NCBI RefSeq assembly: GCF_012641515.1 | Contig: NZ_JABAHY010000003.1 | Span: 186,001-250,000 of the forward strand | Direction: 5' to 3' | Source: Nesterenkonia sedimenti | Lineage (GTDB): Bacteria > Actinomycetota > Actinomycetes > Actinomycetales > Micrococcaceae | DNA: 64,000 nt | Part shown: positions 9,305 to 17,338 of the stretch, piece by piece | How positions within the stretch are numbered: the stretch's first letter is position 1 | Layout: each line of letters begins with the position of its first letter | The notes under the pieces: generated by a model | The model's input: the letters and a program-made list of their open reading frames with translations, nothing else | The model's database searches: none | What the model was told of the DNA's origin: nothing | Program-made: the position numbers and the translations under genes

Positions 9305-10108
9305 GTGAAGATCGCAACGTGGAACGTCAATTCGATGCGTGCCCGGGCAGACCGGGTCGAGGCCTGGCTGGAGAAGACCGAGGCCGATGTCCTGGCCATC
9401 CAGGAGACCAAGTGCAAGGACGAGAACTTCCCCTGGGAGGTCTTTGAGCACAATGGCTATGATGTGGCGCATTTCGGGTTCAACCAGTGGAATGGTGTGG
9501 CTATCGCCTCCCGCGTGGGGCTGAAGGATGTTGAGCGCACCTTCACCAACCAGCCACCATTCGGCAAGAACGGTAAAGATCCAGTTCAGGAGGCCCGCGC
9601 CATCGCTGCGACCTGCGGCGATGTCCGGATCTGGAGCCTCTATGTGCCCAATGGTCGCTCCCGCGAGGACGAGCATATGACCTATAAGCTCGCCTGGCTC
9701 CGGCAGCTGCGCGAGCATGCCGAGACCTGGCTCAGCGAGGATCCGCAGGCCCAGATTGTGCTGGCCGGGGACTGGAATATTGCCCCGCAGGACGACGACG
9801 TCTGGGATATCGAGTTCTTCGAGAAGAACGAGATGACTCATGTGACCGAACCCGAGCGGGCTGCCTTCAACGAGTTCATCGACGCCGGCTACACCGACGT
9901 GGTTCGTCCGCACGCCCCGGGCCCCGGTATCTACACCTACTGGGACTACACCAGCCTGCGGTTCCAGAAGCGTCAGGGTATGCGGATCGATTTCCTGTTG
10001 GCCTCCCCGGCCCTGGCTCAGCGGGTCAGCACCGGGTATGTGGATAAGGACGAGCGCCGTGGGAAGGGCGCCAGCGACCACGCGCCGGTGGTTATTGAAC
10101 TGGACTGA
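9305..10108 (+). CDS. xth: Exodeoxyribonuclease III
   Basis: 267 residues starting at GTG 9305 (MKIATWNVNSMRAR); a longer frame upstream would add unrelated residues. EEP-family catalytic motifs are complete: WNVNS, AIQETK with the metal-binding Glu near residue 36, LAGDWNIAP near residue 156, and GASDHAPV at the C-terminus with the catalytic Asp/His pair. It cleaves the backbone at abasic sites in base excision repair and trims 3' ends. Followed by a strong terminator at 10127-10165. Confidence 0.95.
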   Translation: MKIATWNVNSMRARADRVEAWLEKTEADVLAIQETKCKDENFPWEVFEHNGYDVAHFGFNQWNGVAIASRVGLKDVERTFTNQPPFGKNGKDPVQEARAIAATCGDVRIWSLYVPNGRSREDEHMTYKLAWLRQLREHAETWLSEDPQAQIVLAGDWNIAPQDDDVWDIEFFEKNEMTHVTEPERAAFNEFIDAGYTDVVRPHAPGPGIYTYWDYTSLRFQKRQGMRIDFLLASPALAQRVSTGYVDKDERRGKGASDHAPVVIELD

Positions 10109-10126
10109 CCCCAACTATTAACAAGC

Positions 10127-10165
10127 GACGACCCCCGGCTGATCTCCAGCCGGGGGTCGTCTTTT
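10127..10165. terminator. Strong rho-independent terminator
   Basis: ACGACCCCCGGCTG and CAGCCGGGGGTCGT form a 14-bp perfect stem with a 5-base loop, followed by CTTTTG on the plus strand. It ends xth; the convergent NlpC/P60 gene ends only 25 bases further on, so it may serve both. Confidence 0.92.
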
Positions 10166-10189
10166 GTGATGATGATGGAGTTGTAGTCT

Positions 10190-12511
10190 TTAGCCCACCA
10201 CTCGGCGGACGCTGGTCGGGTTGCCGAAGACGCTGCGCACGCTCACGCCTGAGCTGGGCGATCCGGCGTCGACGATCTGGCCGTTCCCGAGGTAGATCGC
10301 CAGGTGGTAGTCACCCCAGAAGATGAGGTCACCGGGGCGACGCTCACCCCAGGAGACCTGACGACCCTGAGTGATCTGGTCGTAGGTGGTCCGGCCCAGG
10401 TTCACGCCGGCCTGGCGGTATGCGGCCTGCACGAAGCTGGAGCAGTCCCAGGCGTTGGGGCCGTTGCCGCCCAGCTGATAGTAGACATCCGAGCGGCTGG
10501 CAGTGTTGGTCGCCCAGTTGATGGCGATCTGTGCCGCGCCGGAGCCGCTGCCGGAGTTACCCGCGGGCTGGCTGCCGCTGCCCTGAGTCTGGCTCTGGGT
10601 GGGGCTCGGAGTCGATGTCTGGCTCGGGGTGGAGGAGGCTGTGGAGCCGCCGCCTCCGCCGCCGGAACTGCTGCGCAGGGAGCTGACGTGGGTGGCCAGC
10701 TTGGAGGTGGAGACGCTGCCGTCATTGTTCAGCAGGTTCGGCCGGTTGGAGGGGATCCACCGCCAGTAGTCACCACCGGATCCACCGCCGAAGCGGGAGT
10801 CCAGGTTCGAGCCCTCCACCAGCAGACTCTGCAGCTCACTGCTGAGGTCATCCCAGTGCGGGACGCTCTGAGTCTGAGTCGGGCTGGGGGTGGAGGTCGG
10901 AGTCGGTGTCGAGGTCTGGGTCGGCGTCGAGGACTCCGTGGGAGTCGCTGTCGGCGTCGGAGTGGAGGTCTGGGTGGGGCTGGGAGTGGACTCAGCCTCA
11001 GCCTCAGCTTCTGCCTCGGCCTCCGCCTCTGCGGCGAGGTTCTCCAGGTAGCTGACGTGACCCTCGACGATGGTCCAGTTGACCGAACCGCCGCTGGTGG
11101 TGAAGGTGCTGTTGTCCAGCAGCAGCTGGTAGTAGTCCCGGGCGCCGCCGTCGAAGTTCTCATCCAGCTCAGCGGCCTCGCCCAGCAGGGAGCGCTGCCC
11201 CGAGTTCAGGGAGTCATAGCTGGCAGCCGATGCGGAGGAGGACTCCTCGCTGGTCTCCTCTTCCTCTTCCTCAGTCTCGGAAGCCTCGGAGGTCGCAGTC
11301 AGGCTCGGGGACCGAGCCGGGGTTGACTCTTCCTCAGCCTCTTCCTCTTCGGCTTCTTCCTCTTCGCCCTGGGTCTCCAGGTAAGTGATGTGGCCGGCCA
11401 GGGCATCCCAGTCGACTGCGTTGCCGCTGGTCAGGCCGTCATTGGCGAGCACGACGTTGTAGTAGTCGCGCAGGCCGTTGAAGCCCTCCAGTTCAGCACC
11501 ATCGCGGAGCAGTGCTTTCTGCTCTTCGCTCAGGGAGTCGTAGCTGGGGGTTTCTTCGCTAACCTCGGACTCTTCGGACGATTCGGCTTCCCCTTCCTCA
11601 TCGCCCGAAGAATCCTCGGTGGTCTCAGTGCTGGCCACGGATACCGCAGAGTCGGGACCGGTGGCACGCAGCTGGCGGATACGCTCACGCACTGCGTCGC
11701 CGTCGAGTTCGCCGTCCTCGGTGAAGTAGCCGCTGCCGCCGTCGACGCGGTCGTTCTCACCGAGCATGAAGATCAGGAAGTCATCGAGGCTGCCGTCGAA
11801 TTCCTCCAGCTCCTGAAGGTCCTCAAGGAGGTCGCGCAGGACGGCGTCGAGCTCCTCAACGCTGATATTGGTCTCGCCTTCGGCGGTTCCGGTCAGCGCC
11901 AAGGTCTCTGCAGCCTCCTGGCTGTTCTCCTCGGCAGCAGCTGCGGCGGCCTCGGCCTCGCGCTGGGCCTGCTGGGCGTCCACGGCTTCCTGCTCGGCCT
12001 GATCGGACAGCTGCTGGTCGGTGGCATCATCGGCCAGGGCGTCTTCATCGCCGAGCAACACGTCAGCTGCATCGGTATCGCCGTCCTGGTATTCCTCGCC
12101 GGCTTCCATAGCCAGAGCGGCCTCGGCCTCGATTGCGGCCTGTTCGGCCTCCTCAGCTGCCTCAGCGGCTTCCTCAAGCTGTGCGGTGGCCAGAGCCTGC
12201 TGGCGCAGCAGCTCAGATTCGAGCTCGTCTGCGCGGTCCACAGCCTGGTCGATCCGACCGACGATGTCGATGATCAGCTGGTCGGTGGCTTCCTTGGACT
12301 TCTTGGCCTCGGAAACCTGGTCCGCGCTAGGTGCTTCGGGCAGCTCAGTGGTCACAAGGGACTCGGAGAGGTTCTGGTCCTCGCTCTGCTCGGCCGCCGA
12401 AGAGTCCGCGGCGCGGTCGGCGACCAGGTCGGGCAGAGTGGTCCCGACTAACGCTGTGGTCACGACGGCGGCGGTAATCGCTGCCACCGCGAAATTGCGA
12501 CGGTTTTTCAC
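10190..12511 (-). CDS. Secreted modular NlpC/P60 peptidoglycan hydrolase with four copies of an uncharacterised repeat
   Basis: 773 residues. A signal peptide (about 1-35) precedes an acidic, Ala/Glu-rich coiled-coil region (about 65-205). Four related modules of 55-65 residues follow at about 217-282, 324-379, 432-491 and 553-613, sharing the pattern YDSL…LL…AEL..nF.G…DYY..LL…G..VdW..laGHv.YLe. They are separated by Glu/Ser-rich linkers and then Ser/Thr/Pro linkers, likely O-mannosylated. The C-terminal NlpC/P60 domain (about 655-773) has the catalytic Cys690 in AWDCSSF and His736 in GDYHLAIYLG, so it should cleave stem-peptide bonds in the wall. The module is not a wall-binding domain that I recognise (not LysM, SH3 or SPOR). 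A long upstream region suggests regulation by a leader. Confidence 0.9.
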   Translation of the reverse strand: MKNRRNFAVAAITAAVVTTALVGTTLPDLVADRAADSSAAEQSEDQNLSESLVTTELPEAPSADQVSEAKKSKEATDQLIIDIVGRIDQAVDRADELESELLRQQALATAQLEEAAEAAEEAEQAAIEAEAALAMEAGEEYQDGDTDAADVLLGDEDALADDATDQQLSDQAEQEAVDAQQAQREAEAAAAAAEENSQEAAETLALTGTAEGETNISVEELDAVLRDLLEDLQELEEFDGSLDDFLIFMLGENDRVDGGSGYFTEDGELDGDAVRERIRQLRATGPDSAVSVASTETTEDSSGDEEGEAESSEESEVSEETPSYDSLSEEQKALLRDGAELEGFNGLRDYYNVVLANDGLTSGNAVDWDALAGHITYLETQGEEEEAEEEEAEEESTPARSPSLTATSEASETEEEEEETSEESSSASAASYDSLNSGQRSLLGEAAELDENFDGGARDYYQLLLDNSTFTTSGGSVNWTIVEGHVSYLENLAAEAEAEAEAEAEAESTPSPTQTSTPTPTATPTESSTPTQTSTPTPTSTPSPTQTQSVPHWDDLSSELQSLLVEGSNLDSRFGGGSGGDYWRWIPSNRPNLLNNDGSVSTSKLATHVSSLRSSSGGGGGGSTASSTPSQTSTPSPTQSQTQGSGSQPAGNSGSGSGAAQIAINWATNTASRSDVYYQLGGNGPNAWDCSSFVQAAYRQAGVNLGRTTYDQITQGRQVSWGERRPGDLIFWGDYHLAIYLGNGQIVDAGSPSSGVSVRSVFGNPTSVRRVVG

Positions 12512-12869
12512 GGTAGTTCCTCACTTTTCCTCATTGGTGCAACGCTCATGGCTCGGCCCTTGCGGTGAGGCCAACCCCTCGGGGTTCGGATCGGACACGG
12601 TCGCTTACCTGTGTCGGAGCTGTGCTCCAGATAAGCGGCAGAGATGGGAAACGCGTCCTGATTGAACCCTTCGTGGTGCTGCTGGCGTTCACGATAATTG
12701 CGGAAAGGTCACGGAGGCAATAGTCCGTGTCGTTTCTGTGATGAACCTGTGAAACCAAAAACCCCGGAATCATGCGGAAGCAAGGTCACAAAATGGCATC
12801 TTTAAACCTTCAAGTAGGTTGAAGGTTGGATATCCGCTGGCCTGTCACAGGTTTGTGATATGCGCAGGT
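12512..12869 (-). promoter_or_regulatory. Long upstream region of the NlpC/P60 gene with structured leader
   Basis: This 358-base gap holds no gene. On the minus strand it contains, going towards the start codon, a long hairpin (12602-12637: CGCTTATCTG pairs with CAGGTAAGCG apart from one G-U, enclosing GGAGC/GCTCC), a small AACCCC/GGGGTT hairpin (12573-12586) and a GGCC-containing hairpin (12555-12572). Further upstream AACCTTCAA/TTGAAGGTT (about 12805-12828) forms another hairpin that could end the upstream zincin gene. Wall hydrolase genes of actinobacteria are often controlled by c-di-AMP (ydaO) riboswitches, but I cannot fit the consensus convincingly. Confidence 0.45.
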
Positions 12870-13235
12870 TCAGGCCCAGCCGAGCCGGTGCAGTGTGGCG
12901 TCGTCGATCCCGAAAAAATGGGCAACTTCATGCACCACGGTGATGGTCACCTGATCGATGACCTCATCCGGCGATTCACAGATATCGAGGATCGCCCGCT
13001 TATAGAGAGTGATGCGGTCCGGCATTGCCCAGGGCTCCCCACCGCGCTCGGTCAGAGGTATGCCTTCATAGAGACCCAGCAGAACTGTGTCGGGATCCTC
13101 CCAGGGCTCAGGTTCATAGCGGTCCTCTACGAAGACCGCCACATTATCGATCTTGGCTGCCAGGGCGGGCGGGATCCGCTGCAGGGCACCTTCGACGGCG
13201 GCGTCGAAATCCTCATCACTCATCTCGACTGGCAT
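12870..13235 (-). CDS. Zincin-like metallopeptidase family protein
   Basis: 121 residues from ATG at 13235 (GTG at 13253 and ATG at 13223 are alternatives). The C-terminal motif HEVAHFFGIDD fits HExxHxxGxxD, with two zinc-binding histidines and a third Asp ligand, as in the small minigluzincin-like family common in actinobacteria. The upstream half (PEPWEDPDTVLLGLYEGIPL, and ITLYKRAIL) matches the same family. No signal peptide, so cytoplasmic. The substrate of this family is unknown. Located next to the tRNA cluster. Confidence 0.85.
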   Translation of the reverse strand: MPVEMSDEDFDAAVEGALQRIPPALAAKIDNVAVFVEDRYEPEPWEDPDTVLLGLYEGIPLTERGGEPWAMPDRITLYKRAILDICESPDEVIDQVTITVVHEVAHFFGIDDATLHRLGWA

Positions 13236-13285
13236 AGAACGCAGTCTATCCACTACACTCTTATAGGTTCCCTACGGGGCAACTG

Positions 13286-13358
13286 GCCCCCATCGTCTAG
13301 CGGCCTAGGACACCGCCCTTTCACGGCGGCGGCACGGGTTCGAATCCCGTTGGGGGTG
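13286..13358 (+). tRNA. tRNA-Glu (TTC)
   Basis: 73 bases folding as a cloverleaf: acceptor GCCCCCA/TGGGGGT, anticodon arm CCGCC-CTTTCAC-GGCGG with anticodon TTC, and T-loop TTCGAAT. CCA is not encoded. First of three tRNAs in a row. Confidence 0.95.
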
Positions 13359-13439
13359 CGGCTCTGAGCCGATTGGCGAAGAGCAGAGAGGATCTGCTAA
13401 AGTTTTTCCTCGTGCCGATAGGCACAACAAAAGAATACT

Positions 13440-13513
13440 GGCCCTGTGGCGCAGTTGGTTAGCGCGCCGCCCTGTCACGGCGGAGGTCGCGAGTTCAAGT
13501 CTCGTCAGGGTCG
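13440..13513 (+). tRNA. tRNA-Asp (GTC)
   Basis: 74 bases; acceptor GGCCCTG/CAGGGTC with one G-T pair, anticodon arm CCGCC-CTGTCAC-GGCGG with anticodon GTC, T-loop TTCAAGT, discriminator G. CCA is not encoded. The 81-base spacer before it contains CGTGCC…GGCAC, a small hairpin. Confidence 0.95.
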
Positions 13514-13534
13514 CTTGAGCGTTTGGTTGAACCA

Positions 13535-13607
13535 GGCTCTGTAGCTCAGTTGGTAGAGCGTTCGACTGAAAATCGAAAGGTCACCGGATCGACGCCGGTC
13601 GGAGCCA
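13535..13607 (+). tRNA. tRNA-Phe (GAA)
   Basis: 73 bases; acceptor GGCTCTG/CGGAGCC, D-loop AGTTGGTAGAGC, anticodon stem TCGAC/…ATCGA with anticodon GAA, T-arm CCGG…CCGG. It follows tRNA-Asp by 21 bases and is probably co-transcribed with it; the order Glu-Asp-Phe is usual in corynebacteria. Confidence 0.94.
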
Positions 13608-13631
13608 CGAACCGAACGCTTGAAGCAGAAA

Positions 13632-13656
13632 GCCCCCGGAATCCCCGGGGGTTTTC
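13632..13656 (+). terminator. Terminator of the tRNA operon
   Basis: CCCCCGG and CCGGGGG form a 7-bp GC stem followed by TTTTCG, 25 bases after tRNA-Phe. Confidence 0.88.
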
Positions 13657-13671
13657 GCGTTTCATTCCAAA

Positions 13672-14485
13672 TTATTGCGGCCGGCCGAGCACGGCTCTGC
13701 GAAGGCGCTCTCGTATACCCTCCCGAGCTGCAGACACATCAACATGAGATGCTCTCCAGGCTCTCACCGGGGGCTCCGAAGATCCCATTGGACGCCAATG
13801 GGTCGTTCCAGGGGCGTCGACGTCGTCGTCGAACCTCACTTCCACCGGCTGAAACCTGAAGTGCTGTGGTGCCATGAGGGCAAGGAGGGTCAGGGGGTCA
13901 CAGGGATTCGATCCAGGACGCCCCAAATGATCCCACCAGCCCTGTGTGCGGTCACGGATCATTGCGGCCACATCCCCAGACGCCGGCGGCGCCGCAACTG
14001 CGAGATCCTCAGTTGTGAAGGGAACCTCCCGGCAGAGTTCTATACCCACATAGACCACCGGAATCCCGCATGCGGCGAGGCGCCGTGCCGCCTCCGCATC
14101 AGCGCGAACATTGGTGTCCGGCAGTCCGTTGCCGAACTGGCCGGCCATTGCCAGCACGCACCGTGGAACCGAACCCCCGCCCTGGGCTCGCGGTTCCTAC
14201 GCCAGGCGGACGTTGGTCAATGGACCGATCGCGGCAATCACCAAATCACTGCCGAAACGGTCCAGACTGTGGCCAATCAGCTCGAGTGCGCTGTCTCGAC
14301 TCCCCGGAAGCCCAATTTCACTGAGATCCCCGTAGCCCTGACCCTCGTGCCCAGCCCAGAACACCTCGCTGCCCGAGAGCGGCGATGCCTCCCCTGCCGC
14401 CACCGGGACATCGGCTTCCCCTAGCATTTCCAGGACACGGGCAGCCACCTTCGCCCGGGTAGTCGTATCTCCGTAGACAGTAGTC
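13672..14485 (-). pseudogene. Inosine/uridine-type nucleoside hydrolase, broken by an amber codon and missing its 5' end
   Basis: Reading from about 14485, the frame gives VTTVYGDTTTRAKVAARVLEM, VPVAAGEASPL and VIAAIGPLTNVRLA, the start of the IUNH fold, then TAG at 14197-14199. In the same frame EPRAQGGGSVPRCVLAMAGQF and NVRADAEAARRLAACGIPV continue the fold to a stop at 13672. The TAG is therefore a nonsense mutation, perhaps from CAG. The very N-terminal DTDxxxDD calcium-binding motif is absent because the frame is fused to a permease fragment at about 14485. Intact enzymes release the base from nucleosides. Context suggests it served an adjacent sugar or nucleoside ABC importer. Confidence 0.8.
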
Positions 14486-14619
14486 ACCAAGCCATGCCCC
14501 ACGCCGGGCAGCACCAGCCCCGTATAACTGTTGGCCAGGCCGAACTCACGGAACTGAGTGGCCAGCGGAACCGCCACCGCGTCGAATGGCACCAGAAAAC
14601 TGATGACGACGACGGCGAC
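14486..14619 (-). pseudogene. Carbohydrate ABC transporter permease fragment (MalG type)
   Basis: About 45 residues in frame between a solute-binding protein and a nucleoside hydrolase: VVVISFLVPFDAVAVPLATQ, then REFGLANSYTGLVLPG. This is the segment before the EAA loop of CUT1-family permeases such as MalG. Both ends are abrupt, so internal deletions removed the rest of the permease (and any second permease gene). The open frame passes through all three parts without a stop. Confidence 0.75.
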
Positions 14620-15383
14620 ACCACGGGGCGAGATCCCGTCCTCGTGCAACTCTTGGAAGAACTCCATGGACTCCACCCAGCCATCATTTGTCAGATCAGG
14701 CTCATGGGGGTCAGTCTCAGTGTTCATACCGCTGCCACCGCCCAGTGATTCCGCCAGGGGCTGCATCTGGAAAATCTGACTGACTCGGAAGATCTGGAAA
14801 CCATAGGTGGCACCGGCGTCCTGTGTCGCCTCCGCGGCCTCGCGCAGTTCTTCCCAAGTCCAGCGATCGTCGGGGCTCTTGGAGGGCGGCTCCACGCCTG
14901 CGGCCTCTAGGAGCTCCTCGTTGTAGTACAGGACGACCATGGAGGTATTGACCGGGCGGCGTAGAGATTGTCTTCCACAGTAGAGACTTCGACTGTGGAG
15001 GGGTCGAAGAGTTCTTCTGCGTCGTCGAAGTCTTCACTGATGTCCAGCAGCAGCTCATCTTCGACCAGCGCGGCTATGCGAGGTTGATCCGCCGCGTAGA
15101 CATCCGGCGTAGCGTCTCCCGAGCCGATGCGAGTACGGATGACCTCATTGAGGTCGTTCAAGGGCAGCTCTTCATAATTGACGGTCACATCTGGGTTTAC
15201 TTCGTTCCACGCCTCGATGGCTGGTGTAACCGCTTCCTCTGGGAAGGTTGCTACGAAGTTGAGCTCACCGGAGAGACCCTCGGCCACTTCTCCGTCCTCA
15301 TCTACTGCTTCAGATCCAGCTCCACCGCCGCAGGCTGTGAGGGCAAGGGCCCTCCTAGTGTGGCGCCGCATACTGCACGCCAT
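14620..15383 (-). pseudogene. ABC transporter solute-binding lipoprotein, frameshifted and 3' truncated
   Basis: Starts at 15383 (or ATG 15371) with a short signal sequence and a lipobox (LALTACGGG). The family 1 solute-binding text is clear: GELNFVATFPEEAVTPAIEAW, NEVNPDVTVNYEELPLND, and DATPDVYAADQPRIAALVE. At about 14955-14965 one C seems lost: the frame runs into SSCTTTRSS-stop at 14907, while the next frame resumes with MVVLYYNEELLEAAGVEPP and continues to FFQELHEDGISPRG, where it joins a permease fragment. The last half of the binding protein is gone. The signal peptide is also shorter than usual. Probable original role: sugar or nucleoside capture outside the membrane. Confidence 0.8.
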
Positions 15384-15710
15384 TTGCGGCTGGTTGCTGG
15401 GTGCTCATCATTTCCGTATTCCACAGACGTCTCCAAGAGGGGTTTGCACGAGTTTGATTCTGGGCTGATCAGGCATTTTGGTATGTACTTGGCCCAGCCT
15501 GAGTCTCCCCCGGAGACGTGAATTGCAGGTTGAGACGCGGTGAACCCATCACATCAAGTCGGTAAAATTTCACAGGTCAGGGCACGGATTACAGGACTCA
15601 GCTGCATCCCGTCAACGCCAGGCAATCCGGCAACAGAGCCGATCCCCTCACTTGGATGATTTGATGGGCCCGAGACAAGGGATTGGTCGCCGCCCTGAGG
15701 ACAACAAAAC
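15384..15710. other. Gene-free gap
   Basis: 327 bases between the dead ABC locus and the terminator at 15711. It presumably held the ABC operon promoter on the minus strand; I see no good -10/-35 pair, no RNA gene and no coding frame worth reporting. Confidence 0.5.
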
Positions 15711-15741
15711 GCCTCTGTCGTTGGGCCCTAACGACAGAGGC
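15711..15741 (-). terminator. Terminator of the small secreted protein gene
   Basis: GCCTCTGTCGTT and AACGACAGAGGC form a perfect 12-bp stem with a 7-base loop; on the minus strand GTTTTGTTG follows. It lies 18 bases after the stop at 15759. Confidence 0.9.
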
Positions 15742-15758
15742 TGTTTCACAAAAGGGGC

Positions 15759-16028
15759 TCAGTACTTCTCCCTCGCTGCAGGGGGATCGCGCCAGTCGTC
15801 TGGGTAGTACATATCAGCGTACTTCGGAACCCAATTCATACTGTGCCAAGGGCAGTTCGCCACTTGGTACTGCCACTTCATGTTGTGGCACAAAGTCAGA
15901 GCAGGTCCCCCACCCTCCGGTCCCGGATGGTGCGATGCATTCGCGGCAGGGACTCCGCCGAGTGTGATGCCGCCAAGCAGAGCCAAGCCAGCGAGTCCTG
16001 AGAGTGTACGTGTCCTCCGAGAGGTCAC
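15759..16028 (-). CDS. Small secreted protein, two cysteines, unknown function
   Basis: 89 residues from GTG at 16028, chosen because AAGGAGG lies eight to nine bases upstream; longer frames upstream lack this. The N-terminus RRTRTLSGLAGLALLGGITLG followed by VPAANA-SHH is a Sec signal peptide with a good cleavage site. The mature part is about 60 residues with Cys in LTLCHNM and ANCPWHS, which could form one disulphide, several Trp/Tyr and a His-Pro rich start. I do not recognise the family. It is a single-gene unit with its own strong terminator. Upstream gap 16029-16267 has no other gene. Confidence 0.7.
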   Translation of the reverse strand: MTSRRTRTLSGLAGLALLGGITLGGVPAANASHHPGPEGGGPALTLCHNMKWQYQVANCPWHSMNWVPKYADMYYPDDWRDPPAAREKY

Positions 16029-16206
16029 CTGCCTCTCCTCCTTCGTTATGCATTCCTTCATTTCCTGTGCTTCTGCTGCTGTGAGCAGTAGCACAAGGCT
16101 CACGCTACGAAGGCGGTTCACTCGCTATCAAGCGATTTGGACCTGTTCAGAAGGATTCACTGAGAACTCTTAGGTCATGACCATGAACGGCAAATCCCCG
16201 TACAGA

Positions 16207-16275
16207 TTTCTGGGAGTCCGCTCGAAGCGTCCGACTGGCGAACACATGGGAATGTTCGCAGCGACGCTCAGAGAA
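16207..16275 (-). other. Imperfect hairpin at the end of the tandem usp gene
   Basis: AGCGTC (16217) pairs with GACGCT (16264) and GCGAACA/TGTTCGC pairs inside it. There is no clear T tract, so termination is uncertain. The inner part looks superficially like a LexA box but has the wrong spacing. Confidence 0.35.
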
Positions 16276-17338
16276 CCGGACCGAAGTCTGCGCGGTTCTC
16301 GATTCGCTCGTCGTCCTCCTCGGGGACAACCATCAAGGGGCCCTCAGCATGCTGGAGCACCCCCTGAGAGGTCGAGCCCAGGAGCATGCCGGCGAAGCCA
16401 CCGCGGCCACGCGTGCCGAGCACTGTCAGCTGCGCACCGCGGGTCTCCTCGACCAGGACATCCACTGCGGTGCCATCAATGACCTCTGCATCGATGTTCA
16501 GCTCCGGGTAATGGTCATTGAGCCACAGCTTCCCGGCCTCAAGCTTCTCCTGCAGTTCCTTGACCGCATCGGTGTCATCAATATGTGTAGGAATCCACAC
16601 CAGCGTCGATCCAAGGGGTGGCAGGGCGCAGACCAGTCGAAGGGTCGTCTCCCGCTCAGAGGCCTCCTGAGCGGCAACCAGGGCAGCCACCCGGCCGTAG
16701 TCGGATCCATCGACACCGGCGACCACGGGCCGCTTGTCCTTGGTCCGGATCGGATGGGCGCCCTCTTCGATCAGCGACCCCGGGGCGGGTGCCCCGGGCT
16801 GATCCGTGGCAGCCACAATCGGTATTGCGCCCGTGGCGGTGGTGACCGCGTTCTCCTCCTTAGTGGAGAACTTCAGCGGAACCAGGACAGTGGGGCACTT
16901 CGCGTGGGCAGGAAGAGCCGAGGAGACCGATCCCAGCAGCCGCCCGAAGAAGCCGCCGCGGCCGCGGGAGCCGACCACCAGCATCTCGGCGGCCTCGGAG
17001 TACTCCAGGAGCACTGCTGTGGGATCACCCGATTCCACGTAGTAGGAGACTTCACCCGGGTAGTCACGCAAGAACTCCTTAGCCTCATCAATCACCCGGT
17101 CGGCACCGGCACGCAGGGATGAGTCATCCATCATGGCGTAGCCGCCGTCCATGGAAGATGCAGCAAAGGCCGGAATCGAATAGGCGGTGACCACACTCAG
17201 CGGCAGTTCGCGTCGATAGGCTTCAGCGGCAGCCCAGTGGGCAGCCCTCAGTGACTGCTCCGAGCCGTCGACGCCGACGATCACACCGTATTTCGAAGGG
17301 GTGGCCGGGCCGGGGGTTTCCGTGTCCTGCTGGGGCAT
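16268..17338 (-). CDS. Universal stress protein, tandem two-domain
   Basis: 356 residues with two Usp domains. Domain 1 (about 15-155) has GVIVGVDGSEQS and the ATP-binding signature VVGSRGRGGFFGRLLGSVS; domain 2 (about 205-345) has VVAGVDGSDYG and VLGTRGRGGFAGMLLGSTS. Both keep the G-x2-G-x9-G-S/T nucleotide loop, so both should bind ATP, as in mycobacterial and corynebacterial tandem Usp proteins. It acts in the cytoplasm, in stress or growth arrest. ATG at 17338 lies after a GGAGG. It resembles the partial Usp at 1-257. Confidence 0.92.
   Translation of the reverse strand: MPQQDTETPGPATPSKYGVIVGVDGSEQSLRAAHWAAAEAYRRELPLSVVTAYSIPAFAASSMDGGYAMMDDSSLRAGADRVIDEAKEFLRDYPGEVSYYVESGDPTAVLLEYSEAAEMLVVGSRGRGGFFGRLLGSVSSALPAHAKCPTVLVPLKFSTKEENAVTTATGAIPIVAATDQPGAPAPGSLIEEGAHPIRTKDKRPVVAGVDGSDYGRVAALVAAQEASERETTLRLVCALPPLGSTLVWIPTHIDDTDAVKELQEKLEAGKLWLNDHYPELNIDAEVIDGTAVDVLVEETRGAQLTVLGTRGRGGFAGMLLGSTSQGVLQHAEGPLMVVPEEDDERIENRADFGPVL

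Follow-up and report, generated by a model that had tools for sequence, protein, structure and literature searches.

A probable decayed nucleoside-import operon beside a tRNA cluster in Nesterenkonia sedimenti

When pieces of a solute-binding protein (SBP), a MalG-type permease and a nucleoside hydrolase (NH) share one open frame, is a new protein being made, or is the frame what is left of an operon? This question is raised by a stretch of 64,000 nucleotides from Nesterenkonia sedimenti (hereafter the window, in which all positions are given). Translation of its minus strand in all frames places the three kinds of piece in a row between 13672 and 15383. In our judgement the locus is very probably a decayed nucleoside-import operon whose pieces were joined by deletions, as a preliminary description had proposed.

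Layout and lesions of the remnant

The features of the remnant are as follows, in the order in which they would be read.

14964 to 15383, minus strand: N-terminal part of the SBP, a MalE-type lipoprotein (SBP_bac_1, E 2.9e-11; alignment to the SBPs of loci L158 and L122)
14950 to 14970, at about 14960, minus strand: frameshift in the SBP, where SBP homology switches reading frame
14620 to 14940, minus strand: SBP, middle segment (E about 1e-5 for both SBP_bac_8 and SBP_bac_1; 41-52% identical to its counterparts in 10 intact operons)
14488 to 14619, minus strand: MalG-type permease fragment of about 43 codons (identity to the L122 and L158 MalG proteins)
14200 to 14487, minus strand: first kept part of the NH (IU_nuc_hydro profile positions 29-129 of 297, E 9.2e-12; alignments)
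14197 to 14199, minus strand: in-frame TAG within the NH (seen in translation; one TAG inside the profile match)
13672 to 14196, minus strand: C-terminal part of the NH with its stop at 13672-13674 (IU_nuc_hydro profile positions 143-294 of 297, E 9.3e-10)
14197 to 14940, minus strand: 247-aa open frame running through pieces of SBP, permease and NH (from the list of open reading frames)

Indeed, SBP text from 14940 to 14620, permease text and NH text down to 14200 follow one another without a stop, with junctions at about 14620 and 14485 as first described, and both the frameshift and the in-frame TAG are seen in the minus-strand translation. Searched separately, as the preliminary description had advised, the SBP and NH pieces are identified by Pfam. 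Both NH pieces score above the curated cut-off of IU_nuc_hydro (45.7 and 39.1 bits against 34.2), and the second SBP piece falls just below those of SBP_bac_8 and SBP_bac_1. The 44-aa permease piece has no Pfam match and is recognized by its alignment to intact MalG proteins.

The claim that each part lacks most of its gene stands for MalG (about 43 of 284-308 residues kept) and for MalF (none kept), but not for the NH, about 85% of which is retained. By alignment the SBP keeps roughly the first 240 of about 430 residues, mapping to residues 29-110 and 137-248 of the 425-residue L122 SBP. Neither both lobes nor an intact lipoprotein signal is found: the C-terminal half is absent, the signal peptide is shortened by comparison with those of L158 and L122, and the frame is shifted. 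The permease piece is 60% identical to residues 143-185 of the L122 MalG (of 308) and 64% identical to the MalG of L158, a locus from the same genus. The EAA loop of a MalG-type ABC permease contacts the ATPase; the L158 stretch LAEAARMDGLGWFGIFWRIYLP, which we take to be this loop, has no counterpart in the window. With the MalF and LacI proteins of L122 as queries, no match was obtained in the 64-kb window at E 1e-4.

The NH maps to residues 34-262 of the 309-residue L122 NH (for which we chose the start codon) and is 47 N-terminal residues short of the 310-residue L080 NH. In the alignments everything before VTTVYGD is missing, with permease text in its place, and the N-terminal DxDxxxDD is thus gone. 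This motif is given as the metal-binding fingerprint of NHs in the relevant part of PMC8910321, and the window NH, judged by its sequence, is a remnant and not an active enzyme.

Since just one shift and one TAG divide the pieces, one might think of programmed frameshifting combined with stop readthrough, giving a single product from the whole stretch. Large and necessary parts of the proteins are physically gone from the alignments, so readthrough could not yield a working importer or hydrolase, and no Rfam family reaches its gathering threshold within 13600-16300; we give this reading next to no chance.

An assembly error, in which pieces of a live operon were misjoined, is very unlikely. 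Although the draft assembly comprises 64 contigs, the remnant lies well within one of them, at 199,672-201,384 of a 250,930-base contig, and its own genome (G000) holds a single match each for the remnant DNA, the NH pieces and the SBP pieces. Moreover, a misjoin would account for neither the frameshift nor the TAG, which are distinct lesions.

Intact operons in relatives and the extent of loss

It had been predicted that relatives would hold the operon intact. At the level of gene order they do: SBP-MalF-MalG-NH, the order of the window, is intact in 10 loci of the window's class (L158 and nine others), none of them a close ancestor. These loci were chosen for their matches, and their number is therefore no measure of how common the operon is. 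Among 15 neighbourhoods picked for good NH matches, seven have the window's order (L116, L117, L121, L122, L123, L125 and L127), three have the NH first (L118-L120), and in five (L113, L114, L115, L124 and L126) neither an SBP nor a permease was matched at E 1e-3. Three further loci share the window's order: L156 and L157, which belong to the same family, and L158, which belongs to the same genus. The last reads, with Pfam support, divergent LacI, SBP, MalF, MalG, NH and PfkB kinase. Nine of the ten collinear loci have a LacI-like gene, divergently oriented, no more than about 0.4 kb from the SBP gene; at L127 none was found at E 1e-4. A scan of named genomes added four loci: L148 (Paenibacillus validus) has the NH first, followed by SBP-MalF-MalG, L149 and L150 were matched by the NH alone, and L151 by the SBP alone.

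The window has the same gene order on one strand, SBP, (MalF), MalG, NH, as the LacI-linked operons (L158, L122 and eight others), but it lacks MalF, the SBP C-terminal half, most of MalG and the NH N-terminus, has neither a LacI nor a PfkB neighbour, and carries a frameshift and a stop. Across the ten collinear operons, identity is 41-52% for the SBP middle part, 57-66% for the permease piece (over 40-42 residues), 29-46% for the first NH part and 24-33% for the second; the same-genus NH of L158 is 29% (E 0.005) and 27% (E 5e-5) identical to the two pieces. At such protein identities (24-66% by piece) the relatives show the architecture of the operon, not a near ancestor.

Measured against the seven collinear neighbourhoods, DNA is missing from the window at both joins, in line with an operon of binding protein, permeases and hydrolase shrunk by two deletions. 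At the first join all seven have DNA that the window lacks (1825, 1789, 1868, 1895, 1877, 1812 and 1834 bases), as they do at the second (516, 509, 560, 623, 518, 542 and 477 bases), amounting to losses of 1789-1895 and 477-623 bases. The two deletions were likely independent of each other. Because no close intact ancestor is available, their ends are invisible at the DNA level, and none of the repeats listed in 9900-16600 could be assigned to a deletion end.

We propose the following course. The ancestral operon would have encoded a carbohydrate-type ABC importer (SBP, MalF and MalG) with the NH last, and would have imported a (ribo)nucleoside to be split into base and ribose. A deletion of about 1.8-1.9 kb would have removed the C-terminal half of the SBP, all of MalF and the N-terminal half of MalG, and one of about 0.5-0.6 kb the C-terminal part of MalG together with the NH N-terminus; the frameshift, the stop codon and the shortened signal peptide would be added lesions. 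A nucleoside as substrate is suggested by gene content, namely the NH and, in L158, the PfkB gene alongside. We infer further that the NH directly followed MalG in the ancestor, and that the remnant no longer yields any useful product.

The preliminary description had left open whether the in-frame junctions were chance or marked a fusion that is still translated. The 247-aa frame (14197-14940) is open, begins with ATG and runs in frame through both joins, and the chance of two frame-keeping joins is 1 in 9, a point that counts against simple decay. It begins inside the SBP after the frameshift, however, and ends at the stop inside the NH, without the SBP start, most of the permease or the NH metal site. 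A stop-free frame is expected within each retained piece, all of them being coding sequence; the in-phase joins are the only coincidence, and a functional fusion is not needed to explain the frame. Sigma-70-type promoter-like sites numbered zero in 13600-16300 against 0.5 expected by chance, a weak test. Apart from the window's own, three of the 395 family genomes match the SBP middle part, and these have ordinary SBP-sized frames of 437-447 aa; as an incidental observation, no three-part fusion was met in a relative. We therefore consider it highly improbable that the 247-aa frame is translated into a new, functional fused protein, and less probable still that its in-frame joins are not chance and that it is retained as a hybrid protein for a new role. 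The remnant is almost certainly nonfunctional and a product of ordinary gene decay.

The combination of genes in the intact operons recalls a described system. In Bifidobacterium, the RbsR2/RbsR3 nucleoside regulons bring a LacI-family regulator, a ribonucleoside hydrolase, transporters and a ribokinase into one predicted pathway (PMC4746261); the transporters that appear in the pertinent portion of that paper are rihP, rihT, nupC and iunT, and no MalEFG-type importer is named there. Among the titles and abstracts that searches of an open-licence library listed, none dealt with a MalEFG-NH operon.

The type of the nucleoside hydrolase

One feature of the NH sets the window apart from its collinear relatives. 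Ahead of the last active-site Asp it has Cys instead of the usual His (NPCDP), as do the NHs of genomes G140, G156 and G199, whereas all ten intact collinear operons have His. In a tally of 102 loci, which includes several duplicates of one place, this residue is His in 77, Cys in 16, Tyr in eight and Met in one; seven of the 16 Cys loci are the window's own place and six come from G140, G156 and G199 (two each), the others being L044, L071 and L074. According to two reviews, PMC8910321 (section 16) and PMC10526354, Cys ahead of the last metal-site Asp marks group III NHs, and the window NH has this Cys, the one residue on which its assignment to the group is based.

The same three genomes hold the closest NHs (L080-L082), with identities of 59-51% and 46-40% over the two pieces. 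They share the motif NPCDPLTLLA with the window but, unlike it, have an intact DTDIG..DD start. They also differ in their surroundings, no MalEFG genes having been found alongside them in 16 kb, which speaks, as does the Cys that they share with the window, against the decay of a MalEFG-NH operon. At L080 (4576-8463) the Cys-type NH adjoins genes for an ATPase, a permease and a binding protein that by eye resemble a TauABC/NMT1-type importer.

Given Cys in the window and His in all ten collinear operons, a Cys-type NH may have stood together with a MalEFG importer in the lost operon, a combination of which no intact case was found. Alternatively, further genes between MalG and the NH may have gone with the deletion.

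Genomic setting and distribution

The remnant lies beside a cluster of tRNA genes, in a part of the genome that is arranged differently in related genomes. The features of this setting are given below; zincin and NlpC were named from Pfam, and exo, usp, OPRT, nadE, gdpd, ecsC, endo and bcct by eye from their proteins.

13286 to 13608, plus strand: tRNA-Glu, tRNA-Asp and tRNA-Phe, with the remnant on the 3' side of tRNA-Phe
13628 to 13656, no strand assigned: hairpin, rich in GC, that separates tRNA-Phe from the remnant and resembles a terminator on either strand
10109 to 16267, no strand assigned: inverted block with the NlpC/P60 gene, the zincin gene, the tRNAs and perhaps the remnant (from same-genus synteny)

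Only 63 bases separate the end of tRNA-Phe (13608) from the stop of the remnant (13672). We compared stretches around these tRNAs from 20 of 29 other genomes of the genus. Nine contain exo, Phe, Asp, Glu, zincin, NlpC and usp in a common order and orientation, six more keep this order without exo or without usp, and five (L131, L133, L134, L137 and L141) deviate from it. Relative to the first 15, the NlpC-zincin-tRNA block of the window is inverted, and it lies between exo (ending at 10108) and usp (starting at 16268), a full arrangement seen in none of the 20. The window is not alone in showing rearrangement here: in L131, too, exo is found on the side of tRNA-Glu (and neither zincin nor NlpC is in range), and in L134 and L137 that side is occupied by nadE. 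No inverted repeat pairing the block ends was present among the 25 repeats listed, of 38 in 9900-16600.

If the inversion carried the remnant, then the exo/tRNA-Phe interval was its place of origin. Among 14 relatives (loci between L128 and L146) the length of this interval ranges over 510-9309 bases, and its gene content varies too. Five such intervals have 23 listed ORFs, and of the ten scanned with Pfam three had no match; DUF1538 occurred in two intervals, and there was one case each of M48 peptidase, rhodanese/lactamase-B, TauE, PASTA and alcohol dehydrogenase. These findings are in keeping with a variable site next to the 3' end of a tRNA. The same operon was sought in this interval of other species and the idea rejected, the best match of the pieces to the 14 intervals having E 0.014.

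Third-position GC is 61-79% in the five remnant pieces and 68-82% in six neighbours (OPRT, zincin, usp, gdpd, endo and NlpC), a comparison that settles nothing. Also in the block is an ORF of 120 aa at 15759-16121 (minus strand; 63% GC at third codon positions), which has a stretch resembling a signal peptide, and a hairpin at 15711-15741 that resembles a terminator; Pfam assigns it no family above cut-off, and the 20 same-genus stretches contain nothing that matches it at E 1e-5.

Every distribution count that follows includes the window's own genome, and the family, order and class sets are samples of larger groups. The NH C-terminal part matched 1 of 30 genus genomes, 15 of 395 from the family and 40 of 396 from the order, the NH N-terminal part 4 of 30 genus genomes, and the NH alignment 37 of 394 class genomes at E 1e-20; these NH counts are lower bounds, because the searches missed G026, the genome that carries L158. 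The SBP middle part matched 4 of 395 family genomes at E 1e-12. Matches to the SBP N-terminal part occurred in 26 of 30 genus genomes, at 26-37% identity outside its own locus among the matches listed, a breadth that would be expected for SBPs generally. The operon looks patchy in the family, to judge by these protein matches. When the remnant DNA was compared with 58 genomes, its own included, the matches listed were, besides its own locus, only to the tRNA stretch and edges, and there was no DNA match to plasmid records.

This locus offers a clear example of an importer operon lost through large deletions. It is also a hazard for annotation, as the 247-aa frame or the halves of the NH could be filed as real genes. 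In addition, its intact relatives suggest a candidate pathway of nucleoside uptake, in which a MalEFG-type importer is combined with an NH and, in one case, with a PfkB kinase.
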